From: a virus
Virus record (IMG/VR): IMGVR_UViG_3300030419_002709
Span: 1-21,064 of that record
Direction: 5' to 3' (one strand)
Length of the DNA: 21,064 nucleotides
Shown here: positions 1-14,877 of the stretch, piece by piece
How the letters are laid out: each line of letters begins with the position of its first letter
Position numbering within the stretch: the first letter of the stretch is position 1
Notes under the pieces: generated by a model
Told to the model about the DNA's origin: nothing
Database searches by the model: none
Seen by the model: only the letters and a program-made list of their open reading frames with translations
Position numbers and translations under genes: made by a program

Positions 1-669
1 AGAACACATACCGGTCAACCAAGAGACTTTATTTTTGATAAGTACAAGGATCGTTTTCCAGAAGAAATGATGGATAAGGTTTTATATCTACCATGCGATA
101 TTAGTGAGCATACCGTAGAAGCCTATGACAACGAGGATGCTATTCTTACCGTAAATGTGCCAGTGATGCGAAGTGTATTCATGACTATCTTGGATTTTGA
201 TGATGAGGATGTGATTGTATCTGTCGATGCTGATGAAATTATATACGGGGAATCATATGATTATATACTATCCGAGGTGCAGAAAAAGAGTTGTGTTAGA
301 TTAAACCTACACCAGTTTTTCTACAAGCCGACATATTTTTGGAAGGATAAGGATTTTGTTTCTCCAATAGCAACTAAGTATGGAGTATTTAGAAACCATT
401 ATCCATGTGATCTAAGAAATGTGGGTGATGTTGTTTCCGAAAAAGTTGGTTGTCATTTTTCTTGGTGTATGACTCCAGATGAAATGGTTTATAAACTACA
501 CACATACGATCACTCTCCACGGTACAGATTTTGCGCCAACAAGGAACTGTTGGAGAATGCTATAGAGAACAAAGAATACCCATTCGATAGTAGTGTTGAT
601 TTTCAAATAGAAGAGTTGGAAGAAAATGATCCAATACTGCCCAAGTCATTCAGGAGTATGTTGGTGTGA
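1..669 (+). CDS. Glycosyltransferase family 17 (GT17)-like protein, 5' partial
   Basis: The reading frame is open from the first base, so the N-terminus lies outside the window; 222 residues are visible. The visible start carries the HTGQPR motif (residues 3-8), which resembles the family-17 signature (TGxP/K-type) of beta-1,4-N-acetylglucosaminyltransferases. A DxD metal/nucleotide-sugar motif follows at residues 76-78 in the context SVDADEI, and an HFSW motif lies further on, as expected for this family. It should transfer a sugar from a nucleotide donor in the cytoplasm. The first internal ATG (67) would delete the HTGQPR motif, so it is not the true start. Its stop overlaps the next gene by 4 bases (GTGA), suggesting coupled translation within the glycan locus. 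The acceptor is unknown. Confidence 0.75.
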   Translation, partial: RTHTGQPRDFIFDKYKDRFPEEMMDKVLYLPCDISEHTVEAYDNEDAILTVNVPVMRSVFMTILDFDDEDVIVSVDADEIIYGESYDYILSEVQKKSCVRLNLHQFFYKPTYFWKDKDFVSPIATKYGVFRNHYPCDLRNVGDVVSEKVGCHFSWCMTPDEMVYKLHTYDHSPRYRFCANKELLENAIENKEYPFDSSVDFQIEELEENDPILPKSFRSMLV

Positions 670-1325
670 GTAAATCCGTCGCTATAATTGGAAAGGGGCC
701 CAGTGTAAAGCATAGTACCAAGGAATTAATTGATTCCTTTGATGATGTAGCAATTTGTAATTTTCCCCCGATGGAAAAATATCAACATTTAATTTCGAAT
801 AGAGCAACTTATCATTTTTTAAATGCGGGTGATCCTTTTCCCTATAATAGAGATTTCCTAAACAGTCTTGGACTCACGCATGTATTTAATATTGCCCATG
901 AAGAAGTTTCACCAGATAGGTTGTTTTTACCAGATCATGAAGTTTATTATTTTTCAGATTACGGAGTACATGTCAAAAAGGAATATGAAAGTAAACATGG
1001 ATTCTGGCCTTCTTGTGGTGTTCAAGCGTTCGATTATTTTTTAAAAAATGAAGAGTATGATAAGATTTGTTTGATTGGATTTGATTTTGTGAAACCGGGA
1101 TTACCGGTTTATTACTTCCCAAAGGAAGAGGTGAAACCTGCATTGCATTATTTGTGGAACAATTTTCATTACACCACAAATGGACTGGCGTTGGAAGAGT
1201 CTTATAATTCTCATGGTGGTGATAAACAAAAACAATTTGTTATTGATACTATAAATGCATCAGAAAAACAAATAATTTTATACAAGAGTGAGGCGTTTGA
1301 TGGCTGTACTATTGAAAAAAAATAA
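666..1325 (+). CDS. Sialyltransferase-like protein (GT29/GT42-type motifs)
   Basis: 219 residues from a GTG start that overlaps the upstream stop. The N-terminus has a Rossmann strand with GKGPS (9-13), then N32, like the GNGPS loop that binds CMP-sugar in GT42 and GT29 sialyltransferases. PSCGVQA (115-121) followed by KICLIGFDF (133-141) resembles the sialyl motif S region (PS/TSG..., then a strand ending GxDF). H183 in SHGGDK could be the catalytic histidine, by analogy with GT42. No signal peptide or membrane segment is seen, so it is probably cytosolic. The presence of NeuA-, NeuB- and epimerase-type genes about 4-7 kb downstream supports a CMP-nonulosonate donor. An alternative is the related MptE/DUF115-type fold. 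The fold class is fairly secure; the activity is inferred. Confidence 0.6.
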   Translation: MSKSVAIIGKGPSVKHSTKELIDSFDDVAICNFPPMEKYQHLISNRATYHFLNAGDPFPYNRDFLNSLGLTHVFNIAHEEVSPDRLFLPDHEVYYFSDYGVHVKKEYESKHGFWPSCGVQAFDYFLKNEEYDKICLIGFDFVKPGLPVYYFPKEEVKPALHYLWNNFHYTTNGLALEESYNSHGGDKQKQFVIDTINASEKQIILYKSEAFDGCTIEKK

Positions 1326-2415
1326 TCCGACAGTAAAGGGTATATTGATATTGAATCATAAAGAAGTCAATTTATTACCTTACTTCTCACCATTCAGAGA
1401 TAGATATCTAATCGGTTGTCATGTGGGCTGTCATCATAAGTCTGAAAATATCACAGGTTTTGATTTTTATCTATCGTCACCAGAACAACTGCCTGATAAC
1501 TTCCCAGATAAAGATAAAATAATTCCCATGAACAGTAGGAATTTTTTACCAAATGAATTCCATAACATTAGAAACAAAACAAAAGAGTCGCTGTTATATT
1601 CTATAGAGCAAATGCACAAGGTTTCGAAAGTGAAAATATCCAACAGTGTTCTTGATGACATTAGAAATAATGAAAAGGATTACTACTGGGATATTCTTTG
1701 GGTAAATAAACCGCATTCAGTAAAGAACATCAAAACATTTTTAGATCAACTTAAGATACTATTTAATACTAATCCTTGTAATGTTTTATTGATATGTGCC
1801 ATCAGTCCCAATGAATATAAATACAAAGATCATTTTCTGGATGTGGAAAGTTATATTAAACAAATTTTTACAGAAGAAGAGAGAAAATTTATCTCCCTGT
1901 TGCGACCAGAAACTTCAGGAAATGAAGGAGCAGACAATTCTTTAATGCCACCTTTTTATCAGTGGTCAAACGCATTTGCATTTTATACGCAAAAGGAAGG
2001 TGAAAGCAGAGTTGTTCATGAGGCTCTGTGTTGTGGTTGTAGAATAGTTTACTACAAATATGTTGAGGGTGGAAGTGATGATTATCTAGACAATACAAAT
2101 TCGATAGCGTTCGATTCATATGCATATTCACATGAATCTCTATTGTCTGCAATCAAATTGAATAAAGTTGCCGATTGTACGGCAATACATGATATATGTT
2201 TATGTGAAAATACTATTGACAAGTTCAAAAAAGAATTGGTTGATCTTTACAATAAACACAATTTAGATTATGATGGGGAGATGTTAGATATTCCTAATCT
2301 TCATTTTGAATTGCCAGCACACAACCACAAGGTTCCTTGGAAAGAACCGCACAACGAAACTGGAGATTTAACAATTCCTTATTTGAATGAATTTATACAG
2401 CATACAGGTATGTAA
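1300..2415 (+). CDS. GT-B fold glycosyltransferase (GT4-like C-terminal domain)
   Basis: 371 residues from ATG 1300, chosen because GAGG lies 6 bases upstream; a GTG at 1288 in the same frame is a weaker alternative adding four residues. The C-terminal half has the GT-B nucleotide-sugar motif EGESRVVHEALCCG, giving the paired glutamates (Ex7E, residues 233 and 241) seen in family 4 transferases, followed by a YYKYVEGGSDDYL loop. The N-terminal half is poorly recognisable, so the donor and acceptor cannot be assigned. The gene overlaps the sialyltransferase-like gene by 26 bases and precedes the PhyH gene by 12. It probably adds one sugar of the same glycan. Base composition is AT-rich, like its neighbours up to about 5380. 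Confidence 0.6.
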   Translation: MAVLLKKNNPTVKGILILNHKEVNLLPYFSPFRDRYLIGCHVGCHHKSENITGFDFYLSSPEQLPDNFPDKDKIIPMNSRNFLPNEFHNIRNKTKESLLYSIEQMHKVSKVKISNSVLDDIRNNEKDYYWDILWVNKPHSVKNIKTFLDQLKILFNTNPCNVLLICAISPNEYKYKDHFLDVESYIKQIFTEEERKFISLLRPETSGNEGADNSLMPPFYQWSNAFAFYTQKEGESRVVHEALCCGCRIVYYKYVEGGSDDYLDNTNSIAFDSYAYSHESLLSAIKLNKVADCTAIHDICLCENTIDKFKKELVDLYNKHNLDYDGEMLDIPNLHFELPAHNHKVPWKEPHNETGDLTIPYLNEFIQHTGM

Positions 2416-2427
2416 AGGAGATATACC
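2414..2427 (+). promoter_or_regulatory. Very strong ribosome binding site of the PhyH gene
   Basis: AAGGAG, then ATATACC, then ATG at 2428. The 7-base spacing is ideal, and the site matches the well-known T7 gene 10 leader (AAGGAGATATACC) exactly. It is the strongest Shine-Dalgarno seen in the glycan locus and suggests that the downstream oxygenase is translated more heavily than its neighbours. The match is most likely convergence on the anti-SD consensus. Confidence 0.7.
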
Positions 2428-3102
2428 ATGATTGAAATTGATAATATAAATGTTGATGAGATTTTAACATCTCTGGAAGAATCTGGATATTACATTATCC
2501 GGGGAATGTATCCTAAAGAATTTTGCGACACCATCATAGAACAAATGAAAAATGTTCCATATGATAGAGGAGATGGTGGCGATGGTAGATGTCCTATGTT
2601 TGATCGTTTCAGCGAAGAAGCGAGGTCGTTCATGAATAATCCATTGTTTACAGAATTGTGCGGAAAACACTCTAGATCAACAATCATCACTGAAGACACA
2701 AGATGTCAAGCGGGAATAGTTTCAAAGAATATTGGATCCGTTGATTCTGGTGGCGGGTGGCATGTTGATAATCATGCCAGACAATTTAAAGCACTACTAT
2801 ATTTGAATGATGTCGGTGAGGAAGGTGGACCCTTTGCTATCTTAGAGGGAAGCAGAAAGACTCACCGAAACATTCAAACATATGCTAAAGTTCCCGGTGA
2901 CGATTCGGAAACTCGATATTCAGAGGAAGTTCTAAGAGAAACTCCAGAGTGGGAAAATTTGAAAATTTTAACCGGAAATGCGGGTGATGTAATTCTTGTT
3001 GATACTTCTAATATCCACAGAGGATCTGCAATAGAGGAAGGAACAAGATATACATTGACTAATTATTTCTACACGGAGAGCATGAGGAATAATGGACTAT
3101 GA
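2428..3102 (+). CDS. PhyH-family Fe(II)/2-oxoglutarate-dependent dioxygenase
   Basis: 224 residues, normal for small phytanoyl-CoA dioxygenase-like proteins. The iron triad is visible: H112 and D114 in GGGWHVDNH, and the distal H197 in SNIHRGSA. R207 ten residues later fits the 2-oxoglutarate carboxylate ligand. The LYLNDVGEEGGPFAILEGSRKTH segment (124-146) is the typical family core. Such enzymes hydroxylate or oxidise a small molecule, sugar or protein side chain using O2 and 2-oxoglutarate. Inside a sugar locus, the likely substrate is an activated sugar or lipid-linked glycan, but nothing in the sequence proves this. It sits behind a very strong RBS and next to a PIG-L deacetylase. Family assignment is strong; the substrate is unknown. 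Confidence 0.85.
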   Translation: MIEIDNINVDEILTSLEESGYYIIRGMYPKEFCDTIIEQMKNVPYDRGDGGDGRCPMFDRFSEEARSFMNNPLFTELCGKHSRSTIITEDTRCQAGIVSKNIGSVDSGGGWHVDNHARQFKALLYLNDVGEEGGPFAILEGSRKTHRNIQTYAKVPGDDSETRYSEEVLRETPEWENLKILTGNAGDVILVDTSNIHRGSAIEEGTRYTLTNYFYTESMRNNGL

Positions 3103-3115
3103 AGTGGAGAGAAAC

Positions 3116-3823
3116 ATGTGTTTGAAAATTCTATTAGTCACGGCACACCCAGACGATGAAGTTATTTGGTTGGGTTCAACTCTCCATGAACTATGTAAAA
3201 AACCAAATGCAGAAGTTAAAGTTATTTGTTTGTGGGGAGCAATGGAGAAACCAGGAACCATGTCTGCTGTTACTCCAGGATTCTCTGATTGGGACAGAGA
3301 AAAACATTTCTATGAAGCCTGTAGAAATCAAGGATATAGTAAATGTAAGATATTTGTTGATGAAAACTTTGAAGCATCTGCAAATGAATATCAAACAGAT
3401 GAGAATCTAAATATTGCTTTTAATATTTGCCTGAAAGATATTGGGGATTATGATGTACTCATAACACACTCCCCAGATGGAGATGAAAGAAAACATCCAC
3501 ACCATATTCGTCTTTATGAGTTTTTTAGAAAGTTTACTTTAGAGAACAATATTCCATTCGGATTTTTTAGTACATTTGAAAATAATAATATCTCAACAGA
3601 AAAAATCAAGGATGGTGTTTTTAGATGTCAAGAAAATCCGTTCGGGGTTGATTGTTTAATGAAGTTTGAAAACGATGTTTCAACAAAATTAGAATCTATG
3701 AGGATATACAAGTCAGTAGATTTCAATAAACATTATAATGATTATTATGCAATGAGAACAGGTGATGAAAATTTATATATGGATATGAATTTATATGAGG
3801 AGTTAAATAAATTATGGGAATAG
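3116..3823 (+). CDS. PIG-L/LmbE-family N-acetylsugar deacetylase
   Basis: 235 residues. The N-terminal motif AHPDDE (10-15) is the zinc-binding signature of the PIG-L/LmbE family (H11, D13 and D14), and HPHH at 127-130 supplies the later zinc histidine. Members remove the N-acetyl group from GlcNAc-containing lipids, mycothiol precursors or sugar conjugates. Start ATG 3116 is preferred because GGAG lies 6 bases upstream and the protein then begins directly at the first beta strand. ATG 3092 in the same frame, overlapping the previous stop by 11 bases, is the alternative and adds 8 residues. The gene probably works on an N-acetylated sugar intermediate of the locus. It overlaps the next gene by 10 bases. 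Confidence 0.85.
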   Translation: MCLKILLVTAHPDDEVIWLGSTLHELCKKPNAEVKVICLWGAMEKPGTMSAVTPGFSDWDREKHFYEACRNQGYSKCKIFVDENFEASANEYQTDENLNIAFNICLKDIGDYDVLITHSPDGDERKHPHHIRLYEFFRKFTLENNIPFGFFSTFENNNISTEKIKDGVFRCQENPFGVDCLMKFENDVSTKLESMRIYKSVDFNKHYNDYYAMRTGDENLYMDMNLYEELNKLWE

Positions 3824-4479
3824 GTGAAGGTGATATGGTCGTCTTGGATAGACTCAGAAAAGATTATCCAACAGGAGGTAAATGTGCTGTTTTGGGAGAT
3901 TGTACATTTTTTTTCAATGGAGGATCTAAAGAGGCGTTTAGAGATAGACTTAAATTTGATTCTGTCGAAACATTTGATATCAACGGAACACCAGATCATA
4001 AGTTAGATTTGCAAGAAGAATTGGGTCCAGAATTCAAAGGTAAATATGATTGGATAGTTGATGCTGGAACTTTGTTTTGTATATTTGATGTGCCGTCTGC
4101 ATGGAAAAATTTGCTATACATGTTGAAGGATGATGGTAAGATATGGCATCAGTCTAATCTGGTAGGTCATTTCGGTAGAAGTTTTTGGGCTTTTAGTCCA
4201 AGTGTTTTTGGTGAATTCTATTCTGCAAATGGGTTTGAAGTTAAAGAAATGGGCTACATGATAAAAAGTAACGGTAGATATTCTTGGACTAACTGTCCTA
4301 CTAATCATTACTATTTACAATCTGCAACTCAGGATTCATTTCAATTTAGTCCAAATACATCTACTTATCAGGGACCGGTTGTTTGTGATACAAACTTGAT
4401 GTGTTTCGCAATAAGAAAAGAAAGTAAAAAATATGAAAGACCAGTACCAGAACACTACATTAGAACTAATGGTAGATGA
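3814..4479 (+). CDS. SAM-dependent methyltransferase-like protein
   Basis: 221 residues with a class I methyltransferase-like order: VLGDC (26-30) in the place of motif I, an acidic strand end FDING (54-58), DL (65-66), then YDWIVDAGTL (78-87) as the motif IV-like strand and MLKDDGKI (103-110) as motif V/post V. The glycine-rich loop is poor (GDCTFFF rather than GxGxG), so cofactor binding is not assured. The rest is rich in aromatic residues. ATG 3814 overlaps the deacetylase stop; ATG 3835 with AAGG just upstream is a possible alternative start. Within a glycan locus, O- or N-methylation of a sugar is the likely role. No specific subfamily recognised. Confidence 0.6.
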   Translation: MGIGEGDMVVLDRLRKDYPTGGKCAVLGDCTFFFNGGSKEAFRDRLKFDSVETFDINGTPDHKLDLQEELGPEFKGKYDWIVDAGTLFCIFDVPSAWKNLLYMLKDDGKIWHQSNLVGHFGRSFWAFSPSVFGEFYSANGFEVKEMGYMIKSNGRYSWTNCPTNHYYLQSATQDSFQFSPNTSTYQGPVVCDTNLMCFAIRKESKKYERPVPEHYIRTNGR

Positions 4480-5383
4480 TATAATATATGATGTAGTTAT
4501 TATAGGGTGTGGAATAAATGGAATACTCGCTCTAGAATATTTTGGTAAAAAAGGTTTAAATGTCCTGTTGTTAGATAGGGGTAATATTTCTTTATCATTC
4601 ATGGAAAACTATATGATTGATGATTTAATCTTTATTTCAAGAGGTGACAAGTTCGGGATAGGTAAATCAGAAATGAGTGTTGAATTTCTAAAAAAACACT
4701 TCAGAGAAAAATTGGAATCTTTTATAGGGTGTGTGAATTATAACCAAGAAGTTAGACGAGTAAAAAAACAAGAGGATTTTATTCTTGTTGAAACTAATGT
4801 AAAACAATATAAATGTAAAAATGTGGTGTTAGCAACAGGAAGAGGTATACCTAAAAAATTTAATTCATTCTCCAATATCACCAGAGGTATAACTTTATTT
4901 GAAGATAAAAAAATATTGCTCGTTGGTTCAGGGGATAGTGCTGCTGATTTTATATTTCATAATCATTCTAAAAATAAAATATATTGGGTGAACAAATATG
5001 AAAACCCTTGCAGTAAATTGCACGATAGTATAAAATCAAAATATGAAAAGATAGATAAAAAAAATATTCAAATATTAAACACCGATGATGTCATTGATGG
5101 GGGACATGGCAAAATAGACTTCAGAGGAAGTATCATGCACTACGATGTGTGTGTGTGTCTCATAGGTTTTGATTTGGATAATGATTTTTTAAATAATAGT
5201 GATATACAAACATTAACAGTGAATGGTATGAGATACTTGAAAACGAATTCTAATTATGAAACAAACATTGAAAATGTTTTTGGTATTGGAGAAATTGTTT
5301 TATCTCCAATGGATAATACAAATAGGGCGTACATAGAACATACTCCCACTATTCTCAATAGAATAATGGAAAAAATAAAATGA
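4469..5383 (+). CDS. FAD-dependent NAD(P)H oxidoreductase
   Basis: 304 residues from ATG 4469. The N-terminal dinucleotide fold has GCGING (13-18) after DVVIIG, for FAD. VLATGRG (120-126) is the conserved ATG motif, and a second fold VGSGDSAADF (152-161) suits NADPH, as in flavin monooxygenases and the thioredoxin reductase group. NVFGIGEI near the C-terminus resembles the final FAD-contact GD motif. No CxxC redox pair is visible, so it is not a thioredoxin reductase. The start is uncertain: neither 4469 nor an upstream ATG at 4433 has a good RBS; 4469 begins right at the first strand. It is very AT-rich (bases 4741-4800 have 17 G+C of 60). The substrate is unknown; it probably oxidises or hydroxylates a sugar of this locus. 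Confidence 0.75.
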   Translation: MVDDIIYDVVIIGCGINGILALEYFGKKGLNVLLLDRGNISLSFMENYMIDDLIFISRGDKFGIGKSEMSVEFLKKHFREKLESFIGCVNYNQEVRRVKKQEDFILVETNVKQYKCKNVVLATGRGIPKKFNSFSNITRGITLFEDKKILLVGSGDSAADFIFHNHSKNKIYWVNKYENPCSKLHDSIKSKYEKIDKKNIQILNTDDVIDGGHGKIDFRGSIMHYDVCVCLIGFDLDNDFLNNSDIQTLTVNGMRYLKTNSNYETNIENVFGIGEIVLSPMDNTNRAYIEHTPTILNRIMEKIK

Positions 5384-6045
5384 CAAAAATCATGGAAAAT
5401 GTTTCTATAGTTATTCCTGCTCGTAAAGGGTCTAAGGGATTTCCTGGCAAGAACAGATATCTGTTTGATTATACAGCATCACAGATACCACATAGACTTT
5501 TGGATCAGGTAATACTCACTAGTGACGACGAGGAACTTCTTGCTAAGGCTTCTGACCTTGGTTTTCAAGTATTGGAAAGAGAGTCACATCTTTCAACAGA
5601 TGAAGCCTCAATGAGATCTGTTATATCAGATGTTGTAGATAAATTTGACATTGACTCGGAAAGAGATATAATAACTCTCTATCCAACTTATCCACAGAGA
5701 ATATGGGAAGAGATAGAAGAGATATACGACTTTTATAAAAAGGAGAATGCTCGTTCTCTCTTATGCTCAAAAGAAGTGAAGTCTCATCCATACCTGTGTT
5801 TCGAAAACTTGGATGGTTTTCGTGGTAAAAAGATCATAGATCATGATTTATATCGGAGACAGCAATACCCTGAATGTTTTGAGGTATGTCACTATGTTGT
5901 TATAACAAAAGCAAATGTTCTAGGTGAACTGGACAGCAATTTATATTGTGATAGTACTGTATTTTATCGTTTACATGAGAAGATTTTTGATGTAGACTAC
6001 ATGAAAGATTTTGATAAGTTTAGAAAGGAATCTCATAGTGGTTAA
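5380..6045 (+). CDS. neuA: CMP-nonulosonate (acylneuraminate) cytidylyltransferase, NeuA-like
   Basis: 221 residues. The CTP-binding loop IPARKGSKGFPGKN (12-25) is the hallmark of CMP-sialate and CMP-Kdo synthetases. Further family motifs are TSDDEELLAKASDLG (47-61), the LSTDEASM segment (71-78), LYPTYPQR (100-107) and a terminal DVDYMKDF (204-211). It should activate a nonulosonic acid with CTP. It is slightly short: the usual segment after the loop (gkPLi..., about 10 residues) appears condensed to KNRYLFDYTASQIP. Start ATG overlaps the previous stop (ATGA). The next gene is the synthase that would make its substrate. Kdo cytidylyltransferase is an alternative, but the following NeuB-type gene argues for a sialic-acid-like sugar. 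Confidence 0.85.
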   Translation: MTKIMENVSIVIPARKGSKGFPGKNRYLFDYTASQIPHRLLDQVILTSDDEELLAKASDLGFQVLERESHLSTDEASMRSVISDVVDKFDIDSERDIITLYPTYPQRIWEEIEEIYDFYKKENARSLLCSKEVKSHPYLCFENLDGFRGKKIIDHDLYRRQQYPECFEVCHYVVITKANVLGELDSNLYCDSTVFYRLHEKIFDVDYMKDFDKFRKESHSG

Positions 6046-6862
6046 GGTCATTGCCGAGATTGGTATAAATCATAATGGTAGTCTTGATATTGCAAAGAAG
6101 TTAATTGATGTTGCTTCTATTGCTGGTTGTGATTATGTGAAGATGCAAAAAAGAAATCCAGATGTCTGTGTCCCAGAAGATCAAAAGAGTGTGATGAGAA
6201 AAACACCTTGGGGAGAAATGACCTACTTGGACTATAAGTATAAACTGGAATTTGGTCATGATGAATATGATGAGTTGTATCACTACGCTTCTGAAAAGGG
6301 TATAGGATTCTTTGCTTCTGTGTGGGACAAAGACTCTGTAGATTTTATGTCTAACTATGGTGCAATGATGAAGATTCCTTCTGCATTGATAACCGATGAT
6401 ACACTCATTAAGTACGCAAGAAAAAACAGTGACTACCTGATGATCTCAACTGGCATGAGTGATGAGCGAGAAATAGAAGCCGCTGTTTCTCTTTGCAAGC
6501 CAGATCTAATTTTTCATACTAACTCTGCCTATCCGTCACCCGTAGAGGAATTGAATCTAAAATATATTGAATGGCTTGCTAACAAGTATCCCCACGCAGA
6601 GATTGGTTATAGTGGTCATGAATATGGATTGGTCCCTACATTCTCTGCTGTTGCAATGGGAGCAACTTGGGTGGAGAGACATATCACATTAGACAGGACC
6701 ATGTGGGGATCCGATCAACTTGCATCGGTTGAACCAATAGGATTGATGAAGTTGGTGAAGGGTATTAGGGATATTGAAAAGTCTATGGGTGAATATGGAA
6801 AAAGAAAAGTGGCAAAATGTGAGATGTCGAAGAGAAAATCTTTGAGAAAGGTTTGTGTATGA
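6038..6862 (+). CDS. neuB: NeuB-type nonulosonic acid (sialic acid) synthase without SAF domain
   Basis: 274 residues of a TIM barrel that condenses phosphoenolpyruvate with an N-acyl-hexosamine. Motifs: EIGINHNG (7-14), DYVKMQKRNP (32-41), MKIPSALITDD (111-121), ISTGM (136-140), NSAYPSP (162-168), IGYSGHEYG (189-197) and ERHITLD (213-219). H194 and H215 match the two metal-binding histidines known from NeuB. GTG 6038 is chosen because AAGGA lies 8 bases upstream and the barrel begins at once; it overlaps the neuA-like gene by 8 bases. The protein ends shortly after the barrel with a basic tail and lacks the C-terminal antifreeze-like (SAF) domain of the usual 340-350-residue enzymes. Substrate specificity cannot be read. 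Confidence 0.9.
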   Translation: MVKVIAEIGINHNGSLDIAKKLIDVASIAGCDYVKMQKRNPDVCVPEDQKSVMRKTPWGEMTYLDYKYKLEFGHDEYDELYHYASEKGIGFFASVWDKDSVDFMSNYGAMMKIPSALITDDTLIKYARKNSDYLMISTGMSDEREIEAAVSLCKPDLIFHTNSAYPSPVEELNLKYIEWLANKYPHAEIGYSGHEYGLVPTFSAVAMGATWVERHITLDRTMWGSDQLASVEPIGLMKLVKGIRDIEKSMGEYGKRKVAKCEMSKRKSLRKVCV

Positions 6863-7206
6863 TTTACTGTTTTGATCTGGATGGTACTCTATGCACGCTT
6901 GAAGTCGATGGTATGGTAGAGGGACCAAGTAAGGACAAGTTTCAATACATGAAGGCAAAGCCAATCGAAGAGAGAATTGCTCTTGTCAATAGTTTGTATG
7001 ATGCTGGACATACTATCATTATAGAAACTGCTAGAGGAAATGTGAGCGGTATTGATTGGCACGCTTCAACTAAGAAGCAGTTGAAAAACTGGGGAGTCAA
7101 GTTTCATACTTTGAGAACCGGTGTCAAGCACGCAGCAGATATTTACATTGATGATAAGGCACTAAACGCAAATGAATTCTTTTACGCTTTGAGCATGGCA
7201 CCATGA
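6859..7206 (+). CDS. Small HAD-superfamily phosphatase
   Basis: 115 residues from ATG 6859, in an ATGA overlap with the NeuB-type gene and with AAGG 7 bases upstream. The HAD signature FDLDGTLC (5-12) gives the nucleophile D6 and acid D8. TARG (57-60) is the motif II threonine, and YIDDKA (96-101) is the motif IV acidic pair. It is a minimal HAD without a clear cap domain, like small phosphatases found in capsule and LPS clusters. Position between the synthase and the epimerase suggests it removes phosphate from a sugar intermediate, for example a nonulosonate-9-phosphate or a hexosamine-6-phosphate. That substrate is an inference. Its stop overlaps the epimerase start. Confidence 0.8.
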   Translation: MIYCFDLDGTLCTLEVDGMVEGPSKDKFQYMKAKPIEERIALVNSLYDAGHTIIIETARGNVSGIDWHASTKKQLKNWGVKFHTLRTGVKHAADIYIDDKALNANEFFYALSMAP

Positions 7207-8171
7207 TTTTATTTTCATATGGAACAAGACCTGAATGGATTAAGATAAAGCCTCTTATCGAGGCTCTTTCTGATGAAGGTAGACCATATCATGTGTTGTT
7301 TACAGGACAACACAAAGATTTGATTAGTGGTAACACACATGATTTTATTATTGATATTGAGGAAGGAAAGAACAGACTAGATTCTGTTTTTAAATCTATA
7401 ATGGATTCTATAGACTTCTCTCCTTATACAAAGGTGCTTGTTCAGGGGGATACAGCAAGTGCTGCCGCCGTTGCACTGTCTGCCTTTAATCATAATTGTC
7501 CAGTGGTCCATTTGGAAGCCGGTCTTAGGACATATAATTTACAACACCCATATCCAGAAGAAGCATATAGACAGATTATATCTCGAATAGCATCTTTGCA
7601 TCTTTGTCCAACAACATTGGCAAAGAATAGGCTTATTCGAGAAATAGTTTCTGGAAAAATTGAGGTGGTCGGTAACACGGTGCTGGACAATCTAGTTGGT
7701 TTGGAAACATCATACGGAGATGAAGTTTTGATTACCATGCACCGAAGAGAAAATCATGATCTCATGTCTGAGTGGGTCAAAGAATTTGAACTTCTACCTA
7801 GTTTGGGTTTGAATGTTACTGTTATTCGTCATCCAAATCCTAATGTTAAGAAGGCTCTGGAGAATGTGAAGAATATAAATGTCATAGATCCACTTAGTCA
7901 TGATGAGATGATGCAGAGATTGGCTCACTGTAAGTTTATTATTACAGATAGCGGTGGTCTGCAAGAAGAGGGATCGTTTTTAGGTAAAAAAATAATTGTT
8001 TGTAGAGAGACTACTGAGAGAAGTGAGGCTTTGGTTGCCCACTCAGTTTTATGTAAAAGACCTTCTGGTCTGTTTAACATTTGTAGGATAGTAGACAGCG
8101 ACTATATAGTAAGTGAACCATGTCCATTTGGAGATGGAAGTGCTACAGAAAAAATTATGGAGTTATTATGA
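7203..8171 (+). CDS. wecB: UDP-N-acetylglucosamine 2-epimerase (WecB/NeuC family)
   Basis: 322 residues, shorter than the usual 370-380. Family motifs are complete: GTRPEWIKIKPLI (7-19), QGDT (81-84), HLEAGLRT (103-110), PEEAYR (118-123), VVGNTVLD (155-162), HRREN (180-184), DSGGLQEE (249-256) and TERSE (271-275). These include the catalytic Asp, Glu, Glu/Arg and His of the E. coli enzyme. The shortening falls mainly between TGQHKDL and VLVQGDT. The enzyme makes UDP-ManNAc or, if it is the hydrolysing NeuC type, ManNAc plus UDP, which is the substrate of a sialate synthase. The neighbouring neuB and neuA types favour the NeuC reaction. It has ATGA overlaps at both ends. Confidence 0.9.
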   Translation: MILFSYGTRPEWIKIKPLIEALSDEGRPYHVLFTGQHKDLISGNTHDFIIDIEEGKNRLDSVFKSIMDSIDFSPYTKVLVQGDTASAAAVALSAFNHNCPVVHLEAGLRTYNLQHPYPEEAYRQIISRIASLHLCPTTLAKNRLIREIVSGKIEVVGNTVLDNLVGLETSYGDEVLITMHRRENHDLMSEWVKEFELLPSLGLNVTVIRHPNPNVKKALENVKNINVIDPLSHDEMMQRLAHCKFIITDSGGLQEEGSFLGKKIIVCRETTERSEALVAHSVLCKRPSGLFNICRIVDSDYIVSEPCPFGDGSATEKIMELL

Positions 8172-9448
8172 AAAGACCTGATGGAACTACAGTTACCTTA
8201 TGCATGATCGTTAAGGATGAGACTCATATTATTCATGAGTGTCTTGAATCTATGGCTCCATATGTTGATAGGTATGATATAACAGATACCGGTTCTACTG
8301 ACGGCACACCAGAAAAGATCAAAGAGATCATGGACAAGCACGGTGTACCGGGAGAAGTTTACCTTTCTGACTGGAAAGGCTTCGGTGCATCTAGAACGGA
8401 AGCGTTTGAAAATGCTAGAAAGAGTGGAGCAGATTATGCTTGGGTAATTGACGCAGACGATAGAATTAATGGTGAATTCAATTATCCAGAACCTATGGAT
8501 GCAGACGCATACTCATTGAAGATTGGTAGACCAGAATTCACATGGTATAGGAACCAACTATTTAAACTCTCTAGACCTTGGAGATATGTTGGAGTCCTCC
8601 ACGAATATGCCGATTGTGAAGGTTGCGAGAACATGCATCAGGTAAGACTAGAAGGAAATTACTTTGTAGAAGCAAGAACGCAAGGTGCAAGAAACTTAAA
8701 TGTCACCCAAGTTGAGAAGTACACAAAAGATGCAGAAGTACTATACAGTGCTTTGAATAATGAAGACGATCCTAATTATGATCCAGAGAATTCTAGGTAT
8801 CAGTTTTACTTAGCGCAATCTTATTTTGATTCTCAACAATGGGAGAAGGCAGAGGAAGCATATCAAAAGAGAGTTGAGATGAGGGGTTGGGAAGAGGAAG
8901 TATTTTACTCTCTGTTCAGAATTGGTATTCTTTCTGTGTTGCAGGAAAAGGAATGGTGGATGATTCATGCAGCATTCTTAACGGCATGGGAGTTTAGACC
9001 TATCAGAGCAGAACCTCTATATGAATTGGCAAGACTATATCGTTCAGCAGGCAAACCTAGACTGGCATATCTATACGCTAGAATGGCAGTGGAGATGCCA
9101 TACCCCCATCAAGACATTCTGTTCATTGGTTCTGATGTATATGATTGGAAGGCTTTGGATGAGATGGCTTCAACTGCATTTTATGTGCATAGATTTAATG
9201 AAGGGTTTGAAGCCTCCAAGAGACTAATGACTAATAAGAATATTCCAGCAGATGAGATGACAAGAATAAAGAGCAATTATGAACACTATAAAAGTAAAAT
9301 GGTAGAACTGCAAAAAGAACAGCAGGCTCACCAGATGAGGGTCAAGCAGTACGAAAAAGAACAAAAAAAGAAATTAGAAGAACAGAAGAACGCTAAAAAT
9401 ACTCCTGCGAAGACCTTTAAGAAAAGAAAGAAAAATAAATCTAGATAA
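8168..9448 (+). CDS. GT2 glycosyltransferase with TPR-like region and Lys-rich tail
   Basis: 426 residues from ATG 8168 (ATGA overlap with the epimerase). The N-terminal GT-A domain shows TLCMIVKDE (10-18), then TDTGSTDGT (39-47), and the metal-binding DADD at 95-98. From about residue 200 come helical repeats resembling TPRs (YLAQSYFDSQQWEKAEEAYQ, then LYELARLYRSAGKPRLAYLYA). The last 40 or so residues are a coiled-coil-prone, Gln/Lys/Glu-rich segment ending in KKRKKNKSR. This GT2+TPR layout is common in bacterial surface-glycan and protein-glycosylation loci. The basic tail is unusual and could bind nucleic acid, membrane or another protein. It is the last gene of the sugar locus and ends at a late-promoter-like site. 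Confidence 0.8.
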   Translation: MKRPDGTTVTLCMIVKDETHIIHECLESMAPYVDRYDITDTGSTDGTPEKIKEIMDKHGVPGEVYLSDWKGFGASRTEAFENARKSGADYAWVIDADDRINGEFNYPEPMDADAYSLKIGRPEFTWYRNQLFKLSRPWRYVGVLHEYADCEGCENMHQVRLEGNYFVEARTQGARNLNVTQVEKYTKDAEVLYSALNNEDDPNYDPENSRYQFYLAQSYFDSQQWEKAEEAYQKRVEMRGWEEEVFYSLFRIGILSVLQEKEWWMIHAAFLTAWEFRPIRAEPLYELARLYRSAGKPRLAYLYARMAVEMPYPHQDILFIGSDVYDWKALDEMASTAFYVHRFNEGFEASKRLMTNKNIPADEMTRIKSNYEHYKSKMVELQKEQQAHQMRVKQYEKEQKKKLEEQKNAKNTPAKTFKKRKKNKSR

Positions 9449-9469: not shown

Positions 9470-9874
9470 ATGGCTGCTAATTACAATATTGATTTAGATC
9501 AGGGGTCAACCTTTGTTTTCCATTTTCAATACATCGGAAGCACTGGAGCCGCTGTTGATTTAAGTGGATATACAGGACAGATGCAAATTCGTAGATCTCC
9601 CTTGACAGATACACAGATAGTTAAAATTTTAAATGCGGGTGTCAGTTATTCTGGACCCTCTGGAGTAACCACTGCCGGAACCGGTGGTTTCTCTATGAAT
9701 TCTTCCGTCACGGGTTCTGTTCTCACTGGGGGTGTCAGAGTAGAACTGGATGCGGTCACTACTTCTTATATTCCATATGGTAAGAACTTCTATGATGTAG
9801 AACTTGTGAAGGGCGCAACAGTAGATAGAGTATTGCAGGGAAGAATAGAATGTGATCGAGAGAGTACGAGATGA
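9470..9874 (+). CDS. Putative virion structural protein (baseplate/fibre-associated)
   Basis: 134 residues behind an AAAAAGGAG Shine-Dalgarno. The N-terminus (MAANYNIDLDQGSTFVFHF...) followed by VDLSGYTGQMQIR (29-41) resembles the N-terminal module of BppU-like upper baseplate proteins and similar small phage structural proteins (long strand, then DLtGy...m.iR). The middle is Gly/Ser/Thr-rich and beta-like, and YDVELVKGATVDRVLQGRI closes the domain. Role inferred as a fibre adaptor or baseplate decoration, supported by the fibre and beta-helix genes downstream. No enzymatic motif is visible. It lies just after a late-promoter-like site and overlaps the next small ORF by ATGA. Confidence 0.6.
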   Translation: MAANYNIDLDQGSTFVFHFQYIGSTGAAVDLSGYTGQMQIRRSPLTDTQIVKILNAGVSYSGPSGVTTAGTGGFSMNSSVTGSVLTGGVRVELDAVTTSYIPYGKNFYDVELVKGATVDRVLQGRIECDRESTR

Positions 9875-10006: not shown

Positions 10007-11467
10007 ATGTCAACCATTAAACTAAAAAGATCTGGTACTACTGGCTCTGTTCCCGGTCCTGACGACTTGGTGCAGGGTGAACTTGCTATTAACTATGCAG
10101 ATAATAAATTATATGCATTGAGTCATGATAATGTAACTGTAGTGGATCTTTTAGCAGTTGCTGACCAAGTTGGTGTTGCCACTTTCAATGGTTTGTCTGG
10201 TGATGTTTTCGGTGTCGGTAGTTTCAACGGACTCACTGGTGACATACAAGGCGTTTCTGCTTGGAATGGTTCAACTGGAGCAGTAGTCTTTAACGATTAT
10301 GTCGCTACTTTCAATGGACTTACTGGTGCCATACAAGGCGTTTCTGCTTGGAACGGACTAACCGGTAATGTGGATATAACAAACTCTCTTGTTCAAGTTG
10401 GGGGATTATCTGCTGGATCTGGCGCAACCTTTGCTGGTCTTGTAAAATTAATAGGTGGGTTGTCGGCAGATGCCGGTGCTACATTTGCTGGCTCTGTAAA
10501 CTTTAAGGGAGGCATTTCAGCAGATTCGGGTGCTACATTTGATGGAGATTTGGGTTTCGCTGGCAACCACCATATTCGAAATTCTTCTGGACAATCTATT
10601 TTTGACGCAAATAGCGGCCTGAATGTTTATATTGGCGACAGCGAAGGTGCAGGCAATGAAACTGATATCTTTATCAGGGACTCGCATTCACTGATTGCCT
10701 TGAATGCAGACAACGAAATTGAACTGAACACCCCCATCGTAGAGATTGAAGGAAAACTTAGGCATAAAGGCGATACTAACACATATTTAGATTTTACGCC
10801 CGATGGTATTACGATGGCAGCAGGTGGTAATGTTTTGTTTTCAGGAGATGCAACAGATTTAAACATTAGAACAGGTATTTCTGCTGATGCGGGTGCTACA
10901 TTTGCCGGTGCAATTAATACAACTGCTGGTACTTCTGATTTAAATGCCCTGAAAACCGGTGCGTTGCTTATAAACGATAATTACAATTTACCCACTGGTG
11001 CGGGTGCAACTGGTGATATTCTGATGATTGCCAATGATGGTGATCTTGAATTTGAATCTCTAAAGATGTCGGCAAACTTCGTTGTTGACTCAGACATTCC
11101 TCTTGCGACTGGTGTTAGATATAAAGCACTTTATCAAGTCCCTATGGCTAAGATGGCAGTGACAGAGATCACTCTTCGTTCGGATGATGTATCTCCTGCT
11201 GGTTCGGGCGATTCTCTATCAGTAGCATTAAAAGGTATTTTTAGAACTACTGAACTTGATGCAGCATCACCAACAATCGCTAGTACAATCGAAACGGTTA
11301 CAATTCCATTGGGCGGAGAATACTCTGTAACTACAATAGAAGCCAATGTAGATAATCCCAATGTTGGTGGTTCGAACGGCGTTAACTTTTTGGTGGTGGA
11401 TGTTACGGCAAATGCGGGGAATCACACCAATTTCTGTATGGTGGTAACTATGGAGGCTAGACCTTAA
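10007..11467 (+). CDS. Tail fibre protein with internal repeats
   Basis: 486 residues. The N-terminus STIKLKRSGTTGSVPG...LVQGELAINYADNKLYAL is the typical start of phage fibres that attach to the baseplate or a neighbouring fibre. It is followed by repeats of FNGLTG/IQGVSAWNG (about residues 58-122) and then GGLSADAGATFAG-type repeats (about 132-180 and again near 290), a Gly/Ala-rich trimeric-fibre pattern. From about residue 365 a different domain (VRYKALYQVPMAKMAVTEI...) forms the likely tip. It is expected to be a homotrimer in the distal tail and to contact the host surface. No clear chaperone or peptidase domain is seen. The RBS is weak (GAGAAACTAAT), so translation may be coupled to the 44-residue ORF. 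It overlaps the next gene by 1 base. Confidence 0.8.
   Translation: MSTIKLKRSGTTGSVPGPDDLVQGELAINYADNKLYALSHDNVTVVDLLAVADQVGVATFNGLSGDVFGVGSFNGLTGDIQGVSAWNGSTGAVVFNDYVATFNGLTGAIQGVSAWNGLTGNVDITNSLVQVGGLSAGSGATFAGLVKLIGGLSADAGATFAGSVNFKGGISADSGATFDGDLGFAGNHHIRNSSGQSIFDANSGLNVYIGDSEGAGNETDIFIRDSHSLIALNADNEIELNTPIVEIEGKLRHKGDTNTYLDFTPDGITMAAGGNVLFSGDATDLNIRTGISADAGATFAGAINTTAGTSDLNALKTGALLINDNYNLPTGAGATGDILMIANDGDLEFESLKMSANFVVDSDIPLATGVRYKALYQVPMAKMAVTEITLRSDDVSPAGSGDSLSVALKGIFRTTELDAASPTIASTIETVTIPLGGEYSVTTIEANVDNPNVGGSNGVNFLVVDVTANAGNHTNFCMVVTMEARP
10222..10353 (+). repeat. 87-base-period direct repeat inside the fibre gene
   Basis: Bases 10222-10266 and 10309-10353 (45 bases each, offset 87) match at 42 of 45 positions; within them a 32-base core (10235/10322) differs at one base. 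They encode the FNGLTGxIQGVSAWNG unit, so the spacing is exactly 29 residues. A weaker third copy lies upstream (from about 10183, FNGLSGDVFGV). High identity at the DNA level, including synonymous sites, suggests recent duplication or gene conversion. Confidence 0.85.
10400..10546 (+). repeat. GGLSADxGATFAG repeats in the fibre gene
   Basis: Three tandem units of the form G-G-(L/I)-S-A-x-x-G-A-T-F-(A/D)-G, separated by short beta-like linkers (LVKLI, SVNFK). A fourth isolated copy (GISADAGATFAG) lies near 10874-10909. The DNA of the units is similar (for example TCAGGTGCTACATTT-like cores), and the repeats resemble trimeric fibre shaft modules. Confidence 0.75.
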
Positions 11468-12597
11468 TGGCAACAAGATATTGTAATGTTGATTTAGCAA
11501 GTGGTGATAATGATGGTACTTCTGAAGCAAACGCCTATCAGGATTTTAGCACAGCGGTAGCCGCTACTGTAGCGGGTGATATTTTATATGTAAAAAAGGC
11601 ATCTAGTAGACACGATGATGGTCTTATTACCATCAGTAACAACGGCACCAAATCAGCAACAATCACTATAGAAGGGTATGAGACAACGCCGGGTGATAAT
11701 GGAAGATTTGAATATGGTCATTCTTTTGAAATTGATGGTGATTATGTTGTCCTAAAAAATATTGATGTAGAAGACAGTAGGGCAACCAGTTCTGGTGTGG
11801 TTCGAGTAGATAGTGACTCCGAAAAAGTAGTAATACACAATTGTAGATTATACAATACCCACACCGGAAATTATACGGCTCTGAGAGTCAACACCGCATG
11901 TGTAGTAACCGACTCGGAAATTATTTGTGATGGTAATATTACAACTAACCAAAGGGGTGTCATCGATCTTAATTCGTTTGATGGTTTGCTAGTGTGCGGC
12001 TGCATAATCAGGGGCAAACAAGGCATAGATCTTAGACCATATTTTCATGGTGTTATCATCGAGGGTTGTCTTTTTTATGACGCTCCCAACCAAGCAATGG
12101 AAAGGGGAATACAACTAGACATGCAGAGCGGTACTTCTCAAACTGGGGAAGTTGCAATTCTGAATAACACCATTCATGCCAGTGTCGTAGGAATTAAAGT
12201 ACTTGAAAACTTAGATGCGGGTGAAGGGACCATGTTCATCATTCGAGGAAATGTAATTTATGGCGACGGAAGCACCGATGGTATTAAAAATGATGAGACT
12301 GATTCGACTGTCGGTCCTTCTATCTGTTTTAATGCAACTGGAAATATGACTACTGACAACCACGGTATAACTGGGTGGGGAACCACAGTTGCTTCATATG
12401 GAAATATTCAATTAAGTGCAGATCCATTTGTAGATAAAACCAACGCTGATTACAGACTAAACGGAGTCAGTGGGGGAGGAGCCGAATGCAGGGCTGCTCT
12501 TGGGTTTGCTACTCCCACTGGTTTAACTGCGACTAATAGAAAAGACATTGGCGCATACGGACATAGTGGATTAGTTGAAAGAATTTCCGTAAGTTGA
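11467..12597 (+). CDS. Right-handed beta-helix protein, tailspike/depolymerase-like
   Basis: 376 residues with GGAGG 10 bases upstream of the ATG. The N-terminus (CNVDLASGDNDGTSEANAYQDFSTAV...GDILYVKK) is the usual lead-in of parallel beta-helix proteins. Residues about 85-285 contain coil repeats: VVLKNIDVEDS, VVIHNCRLYNT, CVVTDSEIICDG, LLVCGCIIRG, VIIEGCLFYD, VAILNNTIHAS, FIIRGNVIYGDG, each ending in a turn with N or D. The last part (DPFVDKTNADYRL... DIGAYGHSG) matches the common end of pectate-lyase-like domains. Phage proteins of this fold bind or cut surface polysaccharides. No catalytic acidic cluster can be picked out by eye, so enzyme activity is unproved. It is the last late gene before the promoter at 12600. 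Confidence 0.8.
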   Translation: MATRYCNVDLASGDNDGTSEANAYQDFSTAVAATVAGDILYVKKASSRHDDGLITISNNGTKSATITIEGYETTPGDNGRFEYGHSFEIDGDYVVLKNIDVEDSRATSSGVVRVDSDSEKVVIHNCRLYNTHTGNYTALRVNTACVVTDSEIICDGNITTNQRGVIDLNSFDGLLVCGCIIRGKQGIDLRPYFHGVIIEGCLFYDAPNQAMERGIQLDMQSGTSQTGEVAILNNTIHASVVGIKVLENLDAGEGTMFIIRGNVIYGDGSTDGIKNDETDSTVGPSICFNATGNMTTDNHGITGWGTTVASYGNIQLSADPFVDKTNADYRLNGVSGGGAECRAALGFATPTGLTATNRKDIGAYGHSGLVERISVS

Positions 12598-13626: not shown

Positions 13627-13961
13627 ATAGAGAAGAACTCCTAGAACATCACGCTCATCTATGCGGTCTTGCTGTTGACATCATGAAAAAGAAGAATCAT
13701 GATTATGCAGGAAAAGAAGGCGATCAGCCCTTTGCAAACTTTGAGAGAACTGAGGCTATGGGTGTCTGCTCTACTGAACAGGGATTCTTGGTTCGAGTAG
13801 TGGATAAGGTGTCTAGACTTTCTACATTTTGTTCTGCTGGAGAACTGAAAGTAGATAATGAGTCCTATGAAGATGCAGTGCTTGACATTATTAATTACAT
13901 GGTTCTGTTTAGTGGTTATTTGAAAGATAAAAATGACTTGGGAAATAGTAGTAGGAAATAG
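13623..13961 (+). CDS. Small helical protein, possibly DUF1599 / nucleotide-modification-associated type
   Basis: 112 residues, ATGA overlap with the 58-residue ORF. The pattern LCGLAVDIMKKKNHDYAG...PFANFE (13-41), then FLVRVVDKVSRLSTF (55-69) and ESYEDAVLDIINYMVLF (80-96) resembles the phage family once called DUF1599 (nucleotide modification associated domain 1) and the broader all-alpha NTP-pyrophosphatase (MazG-like) helices, with the E/ED..D acidic cluster near 80-88. It may act on nucleotides or help make modified DNA; this is inferred from resemblance only. The gene overlaps the DNA methyltransferase by 29 bases, which tightens the link to DNA modification. Confidence 0.55.
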   Translation: MNREELLEHHAHLCGLAVDIMKKKNHDYAGKEGDQPFANFERTEAMGVCSTEQGFLVRVVDKVSRLSTFCSAGELKVDNESYEDAVLDIINYMVLFSGYLKDKNDLGNSSRK

Positions 13962-14877
13962 TCTTGAAAAACTAAATGAACTTCCTGAGAATTCTATTCA
14001 TTGCTGTGTTACTTCCCCTCCATATTTTGCTCTGAGAAATTATCAGAACGACGAACAAATTGGTCAAGAAGAAACACCGGAAGAATTCGTAGAGAATTTG
14101 GTTGAGGTTTTTCGTGGTGTAAAGAGAGTCCTTCGTGATGATGGAACTCTCTGGTTAAATATTGGCGACACATACTCCCGTGGAAATAGGGGTAAAGTTG
14201 TTCCTCCTGCTGGAGTTGCTGCAACCAAGAACGATGATATTAAATACGGTGACTTGGAAACACCCAAGTTAAATTCTCATCCAACAATAAAGCAAAAAGA
14301 TTTGATTGGTATTCCTTGGAGAGTTGCATTTGCCTTGCAAGCAGATGGTTGGTATCTTCGTAGTGAAATCATCTGGCATAAACCAAACCCAATGCCAGAG
14401 AGTGTGAAAGATAGACCGACCCGTGCGCATGAGCATATCTTCTTGCTGAGTAAAAATGAAAAGTATTATTACGATGCAGAGTCTATTAAGACAGATAGTA
14501 CAACGACATCCTCCAGAAAAACTCCACACAAAAGAACAACCCAAGATTGGGAAGATGGTTCAGGACTTCAGGCACATTCTGGTTTTGATAAGGAATACAC
14601 CAAAGCAAACAAAAGAGATGTATGGAGTGTTCCTGTCAAGTCATATCCCGGCGCGCACTTTGCAACTTATCCACCAGAATTAATTGAACCGTGTGTTCTC
14701 GCTGGATGTCCTGTTGGTGGTACAGTGATTGACCCATTCAGCGGTGCAGCAACTACGGGTGTTGTCGCATGTCAAAATAATAGAAACTATATTGGTATTG
14801 AATTGAACCCAGAATATGCTAAACTGTCAGAAGATAGACTCTCAAAGGAGGCAGCACTTGAAAACTTCTTCGCGTGA
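13933..14877 (+). CDS. Beta-class DNA methyltransferase (N4-cytosine or N6-adenine)
   Basis: 314 residues. TSPPY (27-31) is the catalytic motif IV and comes first; motif I, DPFSGAATTG (267-276), and IGIELNPEYA (287-296) come near the C-terminus, so the order is that of the beta class. TSPPY, rather than DPPY, favours N4-cytosine methylation but does not prove it. The middle part (about 90-240), with a basic RKTPHKRTTQDWEDG stretch (195-209), is the likely target-recognition region. No restriction endonuclease gene is next to it, so it looks like an orphan phage enzyme for protecting phage DNA or for altering expression. Its 3' end contains the RBS and start of gp43 (20-base overlap). Confidence 0.9.
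   Translation: MTWEIVVGNSLEKLNELPENSIHCCVTSPPYFALRNYQNDEQIGQEETPEEFVENLVEVFRGVKRVLRDDGTLWLNIGDTYSRGNRGKVVPPAGVAATKNDDIKYGDLETPKLNSHPTIKQKDLIGIPWRVAFALQADGWYLRSEIIWHKPNPMPESVKDRPTRAHEHIFLLSKNEKYYYDAESIKTDSTTTSSRKTPHKRTTQDWEDGSGLQAHSGFDKEYTKANKRDVWSVPVKSYPGAHFATYPPELIEPCVLAGCPVGGTVIDPFSGAATTGVVACQNNRNYIGIELNPEYAKLSEDRLSKEAALENFFA
14844..14851 (+). promoter_or_regulatory. RBS of gp43 (AAAGGAGG) deciding a TTG start
   Basis: AAAGGAGG lies 6 bases before TTG 14858, inside the methyltransferase coding sequence. It is the best match to anti-SD in the replication block and decides that gp43 starts at TTG, giving a protein that begins MKTSSREFYSNV, close to the T4 gp43 N-terminus (MKEFY...). An upstream in-frame ATG at 14816 has no RBS. 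Confidence 0.8.

Follow-up and report, generated by a model that had tools for sequence, protein, structure and literature searches.

The left half of a 21,064-base stretch of an uncultured virus (IMG/VR record IMGVR_UViG_3300030419_002709, positions 1-21,064; the window below means this whole stretch) is a sugar island that, with a probability of roughly 0.6, carries a phage-borne cassette making a cytidine monophosphate (CMP)-nonulosonate by a phosphorylated (9-phosphate) route. At 5380-8171, next to tail-like genes and replication genes of the T4 type, overlapping frames encode NeuA, NeuB, a small HAD phosphatase and an epimerase, and a protein predicted to have a sialyltransferase fold (g02) is encoded at 666-1325. 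The right half contains genes for a DNA polymerase, a UvsX-like recombinase, a DnaB-like helicase and a primase, as identified with PHROGs, and the window belongs to an uncultured T4-like phage. An original prediction, made from the letters of the window, had placed these five genes at the positions where we find them; because the set recurs in relatives, it is not a product of chance.

The NeuB-family synthase gene (6038-6862, on the plus strand, as are all genes of the sugar island and the two tail-type genes described below) matches PF03102 with 215.6 bits (cut-off 22.1; E 9.4e-64). The two predicted metal histidines, H194 and H215, are correctly numbered from GTG 6038, the best start (H193 and H214 from 6041), and a profile alignment places them on two histidines of the Neisseria meningitidis synthase 1xuu. 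The best NCBIfam model is N-acetylneuraminate synthase (NnaB, equivalog TIGR03569), whose cut-off of 399.65 is missed with 216.8 bits; PseI gives 163 bits, likewise below its equivalog cut-off. The protein reads GYSGHE, in contrast to the G-x-S-D-H of the four solved synthases compared, and we take its SGHE motif to resemble that of human NANS. With 274 residues it leaves no room for a SAF domain; neither does any of 63 distinct phage NeuB frames, the longest of which has 305 residues from stop to stop.

The NeuA-like CMP-nonulosonate cytidylyltransferase gene (5380-6045), with its ARKGSKGFPGKN loop, matches PF02348 over the cut-off (31.1 bits against 22.6; E 2.7e-7). Its solved relatives are CMP-N-acetylneuraminate synthetases and a NeuA (PDB 1eyr, 2.9e-9; 6ifd, 2.8e-8), and the best NCBIfam model, PseF (PseF/NeuA), gives 44 bits, under its cut-off, versus 21 bits for the KdsB type. 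The protein is NeuA-like, as predicted, and scores with PseF/NeuA rather than with the KdsB type. A pathway to 3-deoxy-D-manno-octulosonate (Kdo) is rejected on these scores and on the family membership of NeuB.

Between the synthase and epimerase genes, where it had been predicted, lies the gene for the HAD phosphatase (6859-7206). Its catalytic residues D6, D8, T57, K90 and D99 are invariant across 23 aligned copies including that of the window; 19 of the 23 match TIGR01689 (EcbF-BcbF) at E<=0.01, the window's own being among those that do not. The predicted structure (pLDDT 86.7) finds as its best match in VIA the phage D-arabinose 1,5-diphosphate phosphatase AfhF (Z 12.4, 37% identity, root mean square deviation 3.0 over 98 residues). 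The enzyme resembles the EcbF/BcbF capsule phosphatases and AfhF in its catalytic residues and small fold, and differs from them in being linked to NeuA and NeuB rather than to arabinose or capsule genes. Because the family is probably one of general sugar-phosphate phosphatases, the substrate follows here only from the partner genes, which point to a proposed 9-phosphate phosphatase. In phrog_1238 and several phage records the small HAD family is labelled 'phosphoheptose isomerase'; this label looks wrong, being contradicted by the HAD catalytic motifs and by the solved phosphatase relative AfhF.

A profile scan of IMG/VR identified 545 viral stretches encoding NeuB relatives, of which the best 80 (62-77% identity) were analysed. 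We counted 63 distinct phage NeuB loci, each with a different NeuB protein; in 53, the sequence extends for 4 kb or more to either side. Within 5 kb on the same strand, NeuA occurs in 56 loci, HAD in 50, the epimerase in 11 and a g02-type frame in 20, and NeuA and HAD occur together, on either strand, in 44; these counts come from locus models iterated on the same loci, the NeuA model may also pick up other nucleotidyltransferases and the g02-type model includes distant, possibly MptE-like members. The commonest local order is NeuA-NeuB-HAD (21/63). One locus (L089) encodes a transferase, NeuA, NeuB, HAD and epimerase in overlapping or abutting frames, and in another (L019) NeuA and the small HAD are fused in one frame. 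In a quick tree with reference rows on long branches and an arbitrary root, 64 of the 69 viral rows form one starred clade, one (L006) groups with a Neomarinimicrobiota row and four lie far out. The motif GYSGHEY, present in 65 of the 69 rows, is biased in this viral set, as it was one of two patterns used in the scan. Among phage records, only 3 of 50,697 match NeuB: an uncultured 484-kb phage, a single-cell marine virus in the Kyanoviridae and a record filed under Moritella viscosa, the last with a weak match (26.6%).

Cellular relatives of the synthase have a phosphatase close by. Among 80 listed cellular loci (the scan holds at least that many), a HAD resembling KdsC and the 9-phosphate phosphatase of 2-keto-3-deoxynononic acid (Kdn) lies in the NeuA frame in 55, is separate within 5 kb in 21 and is absent from 4, so that 76 of the 80 have it in one of these two arrangements. 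GYSGHE is present in 80/80, and here the motif was not used in the scan. The two separate HADs scanned have the Kdn 9-phosphatase equivalog NF058599 as their best model (5e-41 and 2e-44, below its cut-off), and the two fused proteins scanned consist of a NeuA half and a KdsC-like half. The Streptomyces loci in this list share with the phage a synthase 51-53% identical and the GYSGHE motif, and differ in that their phosphatase is fused to NeuA and of the KdsC type. Streptomyces makes Kdn-containing wall polymers (teichulosonic acid), according to PMC11481543, and the listed Streptomyces loci presumably make that Kdn. In a Neomarinimicrobiota contig (L095:5947-9198), a NeuB relative, NeuA, a Kdn-9-phosphate-phosphatase-like HAD and a WaaA-like Kdo-transferase stand in a row, possibly placing Kdn instead of Kdo in the lipopolysaccharide core.

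The 9-phosphate route is favored because the HAD is a core step. Enzymes of a matching set in Bacteroides thetaiotaomicron, Prymnesium parvum and humans use sugar 6-phosphates (PMC6200933). The phage cassette shares with the Kdn-9-phosphate route of the first two and with human NANS-NANP-CMAS the succession of synthase, phosphatase and CMP-synthetase and a NeuB-family synthase; it differs in having a synthase without SAF domain and a distinct small HAD and in being phage-encoded. From the phosphatase association we infer that the substrate of the phage synthase is a hexose 6-phosphate. The SAF-less NeuB would condense it, most likely as mannose-6-phosphate of the host or else as N-acetylmannosamine (ManNAc)-6-phosphate, with phosphoenolpyruvate to a nonulosonate 9-phosphate. 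The small HAD would then take off the 9-phosphate, NeuA would turn the free sugar (Kdn or N-acetylneuraminic acid (Neu5Ac)-like) into its CMP ester, and g02 would transfer this to a glycan made by the neighboring glycosyltransferases. Kdn is the favored product because mannose-6-phosphate is common and no extra gene is needed. Family membership, fold, gene order, linkage and conservation are what the analysis establishes, and the substrates, the sugar, its acceptor and its role in the phage are deduced; unless the hexose phosphate comes from the host, the cassette is not the whole chain of the original prediction.

The epimerase (7203-8171) does not fit the chain as originally drawn. It exceeds the cut-off of the broad PF02350 (4.3e-60) and falls just under that of the non-hydrolysing WecB model TIGR00236 (201.9 bits against 210.15), and is therefore called WecB-type rather than WecB. 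The hydrolysing NeuC model TIGR03568 gives 50.1 bits (cut-off 235.9). Among solved structures it comes closest to bacterial UDP-GlcNAc 2-epimerases such as 1f6d, with the human bifunctional enzyme 4zht far lower (2e-5); which of the solved epimerases are non-hydrolysing is, except where a family model names them, our presumption. Judged from sequence, the product should be UDP-N-acetylmannosamine (UDP-ManNAc), which is not directly usable by NeuB, and the epimerase would probably supply it to the neighboring GT2 glycosyltransferase instead. The 63-locus counts, the gene order of L089 and the NeuA-HAD frame of L019 identify the HAD as a core part of the cassette and the epimerase as optional.

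These results bear on a rather improbable alternative, the classical bacterial route, in which a hydrolysing NeuC would make ManNAc, NeuB would make free Neu5Ac for activation by NeuA, and the HAD would serve another sugar. The epimerase gene adjoins that of the HAD in the window, in L002 and in L089, and N-acetylneuraminate synthase is the best NCBIfam model for NeuB, under its cut-off. However, a NeuC is ruled out by the epimerase scores (202 bits for WecB against 50), the solved relatives point the same way, the epimerase is found in 11 of the 63 loci as opposed to 50 for the HAD, and the phosphatase accompanies 76 of the 80 listed cellular relatives. The phage set has the NeuB and NeuA families and a nearby epimerase in common with the NeuC-NeuB-NeuA systems of Escherichia coli and N. 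meningitidis; unlike them, it has a WecB-type and optional epimerase, an extra HAD and no SAF domain. Thus, of the WecB/NeuC epimerase originally predicted the WecB-type part stands and the NeuC part does not. Likewise, the near-complete CMP-nonulosonate pathway with its transferase is supported, but its passage from NeuC through ManNAc to NeuB is not, and the chain is corrected at the epimerase and the phosphatase.

A second alternative, to which we likewise give little weight, is that the product is a di-N-acyl sugar resembling pseudaminic or legionaminic acid, tailored by the oxidoreductase, the PIG-L deacetylase and the methyltransferase. PseF is the best NCBIfam model for NeuA, under its cut-off, and some frames in relatives look DegT-like and SDR-like by eye alone. 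The PIG-L deacetylase and methyltransferase pair (3092-4479) also recurs near NeuA-NeuB-HAD in L062 and L068, perhaps for sugar tailoring. Against this reading, the window proteins scanned show no aminotransferase or SDR match, and NeuB scores 217 bits with NnaB versus 163 with PseI.

The phosphorylated-route cassette would be completed by g02 (GTG start; its gene overlaps the stop of the preceding one), which the original prediction had named sialyltransferase-like. Its AlphaFold2 (AF2) model has a pLDDT of 88.5 and a pTM of 0.88; the input was a 24-sequence alignment including clear GT29 members, so that the model is not fully independent of them. A Foldseek search of the PDB with this model yields 32 matches at E<=1e-3, every one a sialyltransferase. 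VIA likewise ranks sialyltransferases in its first 24 places (Z 13.4 to 11.3), with Maf (9.9) and HPPK (9.1) next, and the top entry, CstII (Z 13.4, 3.7 A over 198 residues), is tied with GT29 entries. The GT29 and GT42 family names of the matched PDB entries, and the roles of the sialylmotif and CstII residues, are as we take them to be. A profile of the 24 sequences reaches sialyltransferases at 4e-23 (CstII at 5e-12), but it includes the clear GT29 members; a search of the PDB with the single sequence returned only an unrelated weak match. The protein thus matches sialyltransferases and not unrelated families alone, and on the strength of its model we describe it as a predicted sialyltransferase-fold protein of the GT29/GT42 superfamily without calling it a GT29 member.

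Some relatives of g02 come closer to GT29. When ten phage relatives are compared with PF00777, eight exceed its 23-bit cut-off (best 1e-33); within the g02 clade, L005 (61% identical to g02) scores 24.0 bits, and L003 (17.4) and L014 (21.4) are under the cut-off. Whole-record GT29 scans of 13 records give 4 that pass, L014 reaching 25.4 bits with neighbors in frame, and 14 control genomes give none. Across the 24 aligned sequences G9, G118, G138, F139 and H183 are invariant and I22, N32 and Y150 nearly so; of sialylmotifs L, S, III and VS, g02 shares H183, G118, G138, F139 and nearly N32 and Y150, the other residues being different. It resembles GT29 enzymes (vertebrate ST3Gal/ST8Sia and bacterial) in fold, in blocks like sialylmotifs L and S and in the invariant histidine H183. 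With GT42 CstI and CstII of Campylobacter it shares the top fold match, CstII, and a GxGPS start, and differs in showing 15% identity and no Pfam GT42 match listed in the scan.

The g02 type is also linked to the cassette genes. When viral sequences were scanned with nothing but g02 relatives, 7 loci emerged, each on its own contig, although two are probably copies of one another, as their coordinates and scores are identical; all seven contigs have NeuA and six have NeuB. In the seventh (L091), the NeuA frame starts at base 10,864 of the locus and the contig stops at base 12,565. Of 28 viral loci with strong GT29-like genes (E<1e-30), 23 have NeuA or NeuB; ten of the 28 are on contigs already found via NeuB, and the other 18 include 13 with NeuA or NeuB and 8 with NeuB. 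The weaker loci (E>=1e-30; 51 of 79) have NeuA or NeuB in 13. This locus scan is partly circular, as the GT29-like query (A4) was built from NeuB-found loci.

A second kind of phage GT29-like cluster is seen in L206, L212, L215, L221 and L232, where three to five GT29-like frames stand in tandem and the locus contains neither NeuA nor NeuB. In the 484-kb uncultured phage LR756508.1 (L254), seven GT29 stretches exceed the Pfam cut-off and seem to belong to about five genes, one of them read through a TAG; most have a NeuB and a HAD gene nearby, and the NeuA model used here detected no NeuA in this phage.

It is also conceivable, though again improbable, that g02, instead of being the transferase of the cassette sugar, is related to MptE/DUF115 or Maf proteins and shares only a core of similar shape with sialyltransferases. 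L014 has a weak MptE-like match (0.0076), several BFVD neighbors are named MptE-like, and Maf and HPPK follow in the fold list. However, the 24 best fold entries all have Z>=11.3 and are sialyltransferases, the clade members in L005, L007 and L014 pass GT29 where no control genome does, and g02-type genes co-occur with NeuA.

A number of observations weigh against a 9-phosphate cassette with g02 as its transferase. The match of g02 to Pfam GT29 (PF00777) is at 13.5 bits and E 0.048, under the 23-bit cut-off. A profile of the ten g02-clade members reaches ST3Gal1 alone, at E 0.055, and nothing else at E<=10, CstII included; the sialyltransferase claim therefore rests on the fold and, more weakly, on the relatives that pass Pfam. 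Of eight g02-clade contigs scanned whole, three pass GT29 at the clade gene (L005, L007 and L014) and five fail. Moreover, g02 departs from GT29-positive phage proteins at several positions invariant or nearly so in them; among these are the histidine that precedes Y150 in the HY pair and a glutamate located five residues beyond H183, both of which it lacks. In the window it is 4 kb and several genes away from NeuA, and 43 of the 63 NeuB loci have no g02-type frame within 5 kb. As for the phosphatase, the window HAD has no match to the Kdn 9-phosphatase equivalog NF058599 at E<=0.01. Its family serves other pathways too: relatives occur in 369 of 50,697 phage records, of which just two are NeuB records, and in several of the 25 listed they have heptose or capsule genes as neighbors. 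Finally, 50 of the 80 listed cellular loci are from Streptomyces and are not independent.

The sugar island begins with a GT17-like glycosyltransferase gene open at its 5' end (1-669; PF04724 3.4e-10), which recurs close to g02 homologs. After g02 come a weak group-1-like glycosyltransferase (1288-2415; PF00534 9.4e-5, under the cut-off), a PhyH-type 2-oxoglutarate-Fe(II) dioxygenase (2428-3102; PF05721 1.7e-6), a de-N-acetylase of the PIG-L/LmbE type (3092-3823; PF02585 1.1e-12), a possible S-adenosylmethionine methyltransferase (3814-4479; PF08242 0.021, under the cut-off) and a flavin adenine dinucleotide (FAD) pyridine-nucleotide oxidoreductase (4433-5383; PF13738 2.2e-19). The oxidoreductase also matches phrog_6397, labelled ribonucleotide reductase large subunit, a label that looks wrong. 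Behind the epimerase gene and overlapping it is that of the GT2 glycosyltransferase (8168-9448, ATG 8168; PF00535 1.8e-9), whose C-terminal half is weakly TPR-like (TPR models under the cut-off). From the oxidoreductase through the GT2 enzyme, successive genes overlap by 4-8 bases with the starts chosen here. PHROGs at E 0.01 give no family for the GT17-like, group-1-like, g02, methyltransferase, NeuA and NeuB proteins, and megablast against phage records finds three short matches, in polymerase and helicase genes.

Two tail-type genes adjoin the island on its right. The first encodes a probable tail-associated protein (9470-9874), which matches phrog_1084 (2.9e-17), a family of unknown function, and phrog_3304 (tail; 6e-7). 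The second encodes a tail-fiber-like protein (10007-11467) matching phrog_19966, long tail fiber distal subunit (1.9e-6), over its N-terminal 40 residues only. Because a tail-like frame of the first type comes after the cassette in the window and in L002, L008, L009, L014 and L021, the fibers are a candidate acceptor, and the second protein may be one; the sugar would perhaps go to the adjacent fibers or to the host envelope, the envelope being equally open. Further right, a DNA methyltransferase gene (13933-14877) lies between dUTPase and polymerase and has no relative in the 92 loci searched, one of which (L001) is a part of the window without that gene.

That the HAD and sugar genes serve DNA hypermodification, as AfhF of phage HY126 may do (a link to DNA modification that we presume), with the nonulosonate part coincidental or also destined for DNA, is very unlikely: the closest solved HAD relative is phage AfhF (Z 12.4), the family is common in Escherichia and Acinetobacter phages and the window has the DNA methyltransferase, but the NeuA-HAD fusion, the repeated NeuA-NeuB-HAD order and the tail-like genes adjoining the sugar island argue against it.

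Parts of the system were known already: neuB in viromes, bacterial GT29 and a GT29-named phage protein, BFVD listing a protein of an uncultured Caudovirales phage under the name 'Glycosyl transferase family 29'. A table of a 2013 virome survey lists neuB ('126 8') and neuA ('11 5'), figures quoted here apart from their column heads (PMC3877843), a 2018 survey counted 23 bacterial GT29 sequences (PMC5811610) and a count of viral genes from corals includes one GT29 (PMC11656804). In searches of open-licence papers, we found neither the NeuA-NeuB-HAD cassette described nor its linkage with a protein of sialyltransferase fold. A bolder extension, that uncultured T4-like phages sialylate their own tail fibers via a eukaryote-like phosphorylated Kdn pathway with a minimal phosphatase and GT29/GT42-superfamily enzymes, and that phages are a major overlooked non-eukaryotic reservoir of the GT29 type, is doubtful.

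NeuB relatives are common in uncultured viruses (545 stretches in IMG/VR) and nearly absent from phage records (3 of 50,697), so isolate-based annotation would miss the set. The cassette is a source of small, soluble, testable enzymes and has a bearing on how GT29 sialyltransferases originated. At the surfaces of cells and viruses, recognition is controlled by sialic-acid-like sugars; with a compact cassette for the activated sugar and a sialyltransferase-fold enzyme linked to it, a phage could alter, during infection, the charge and the receptors of its own surface or of that of its host.

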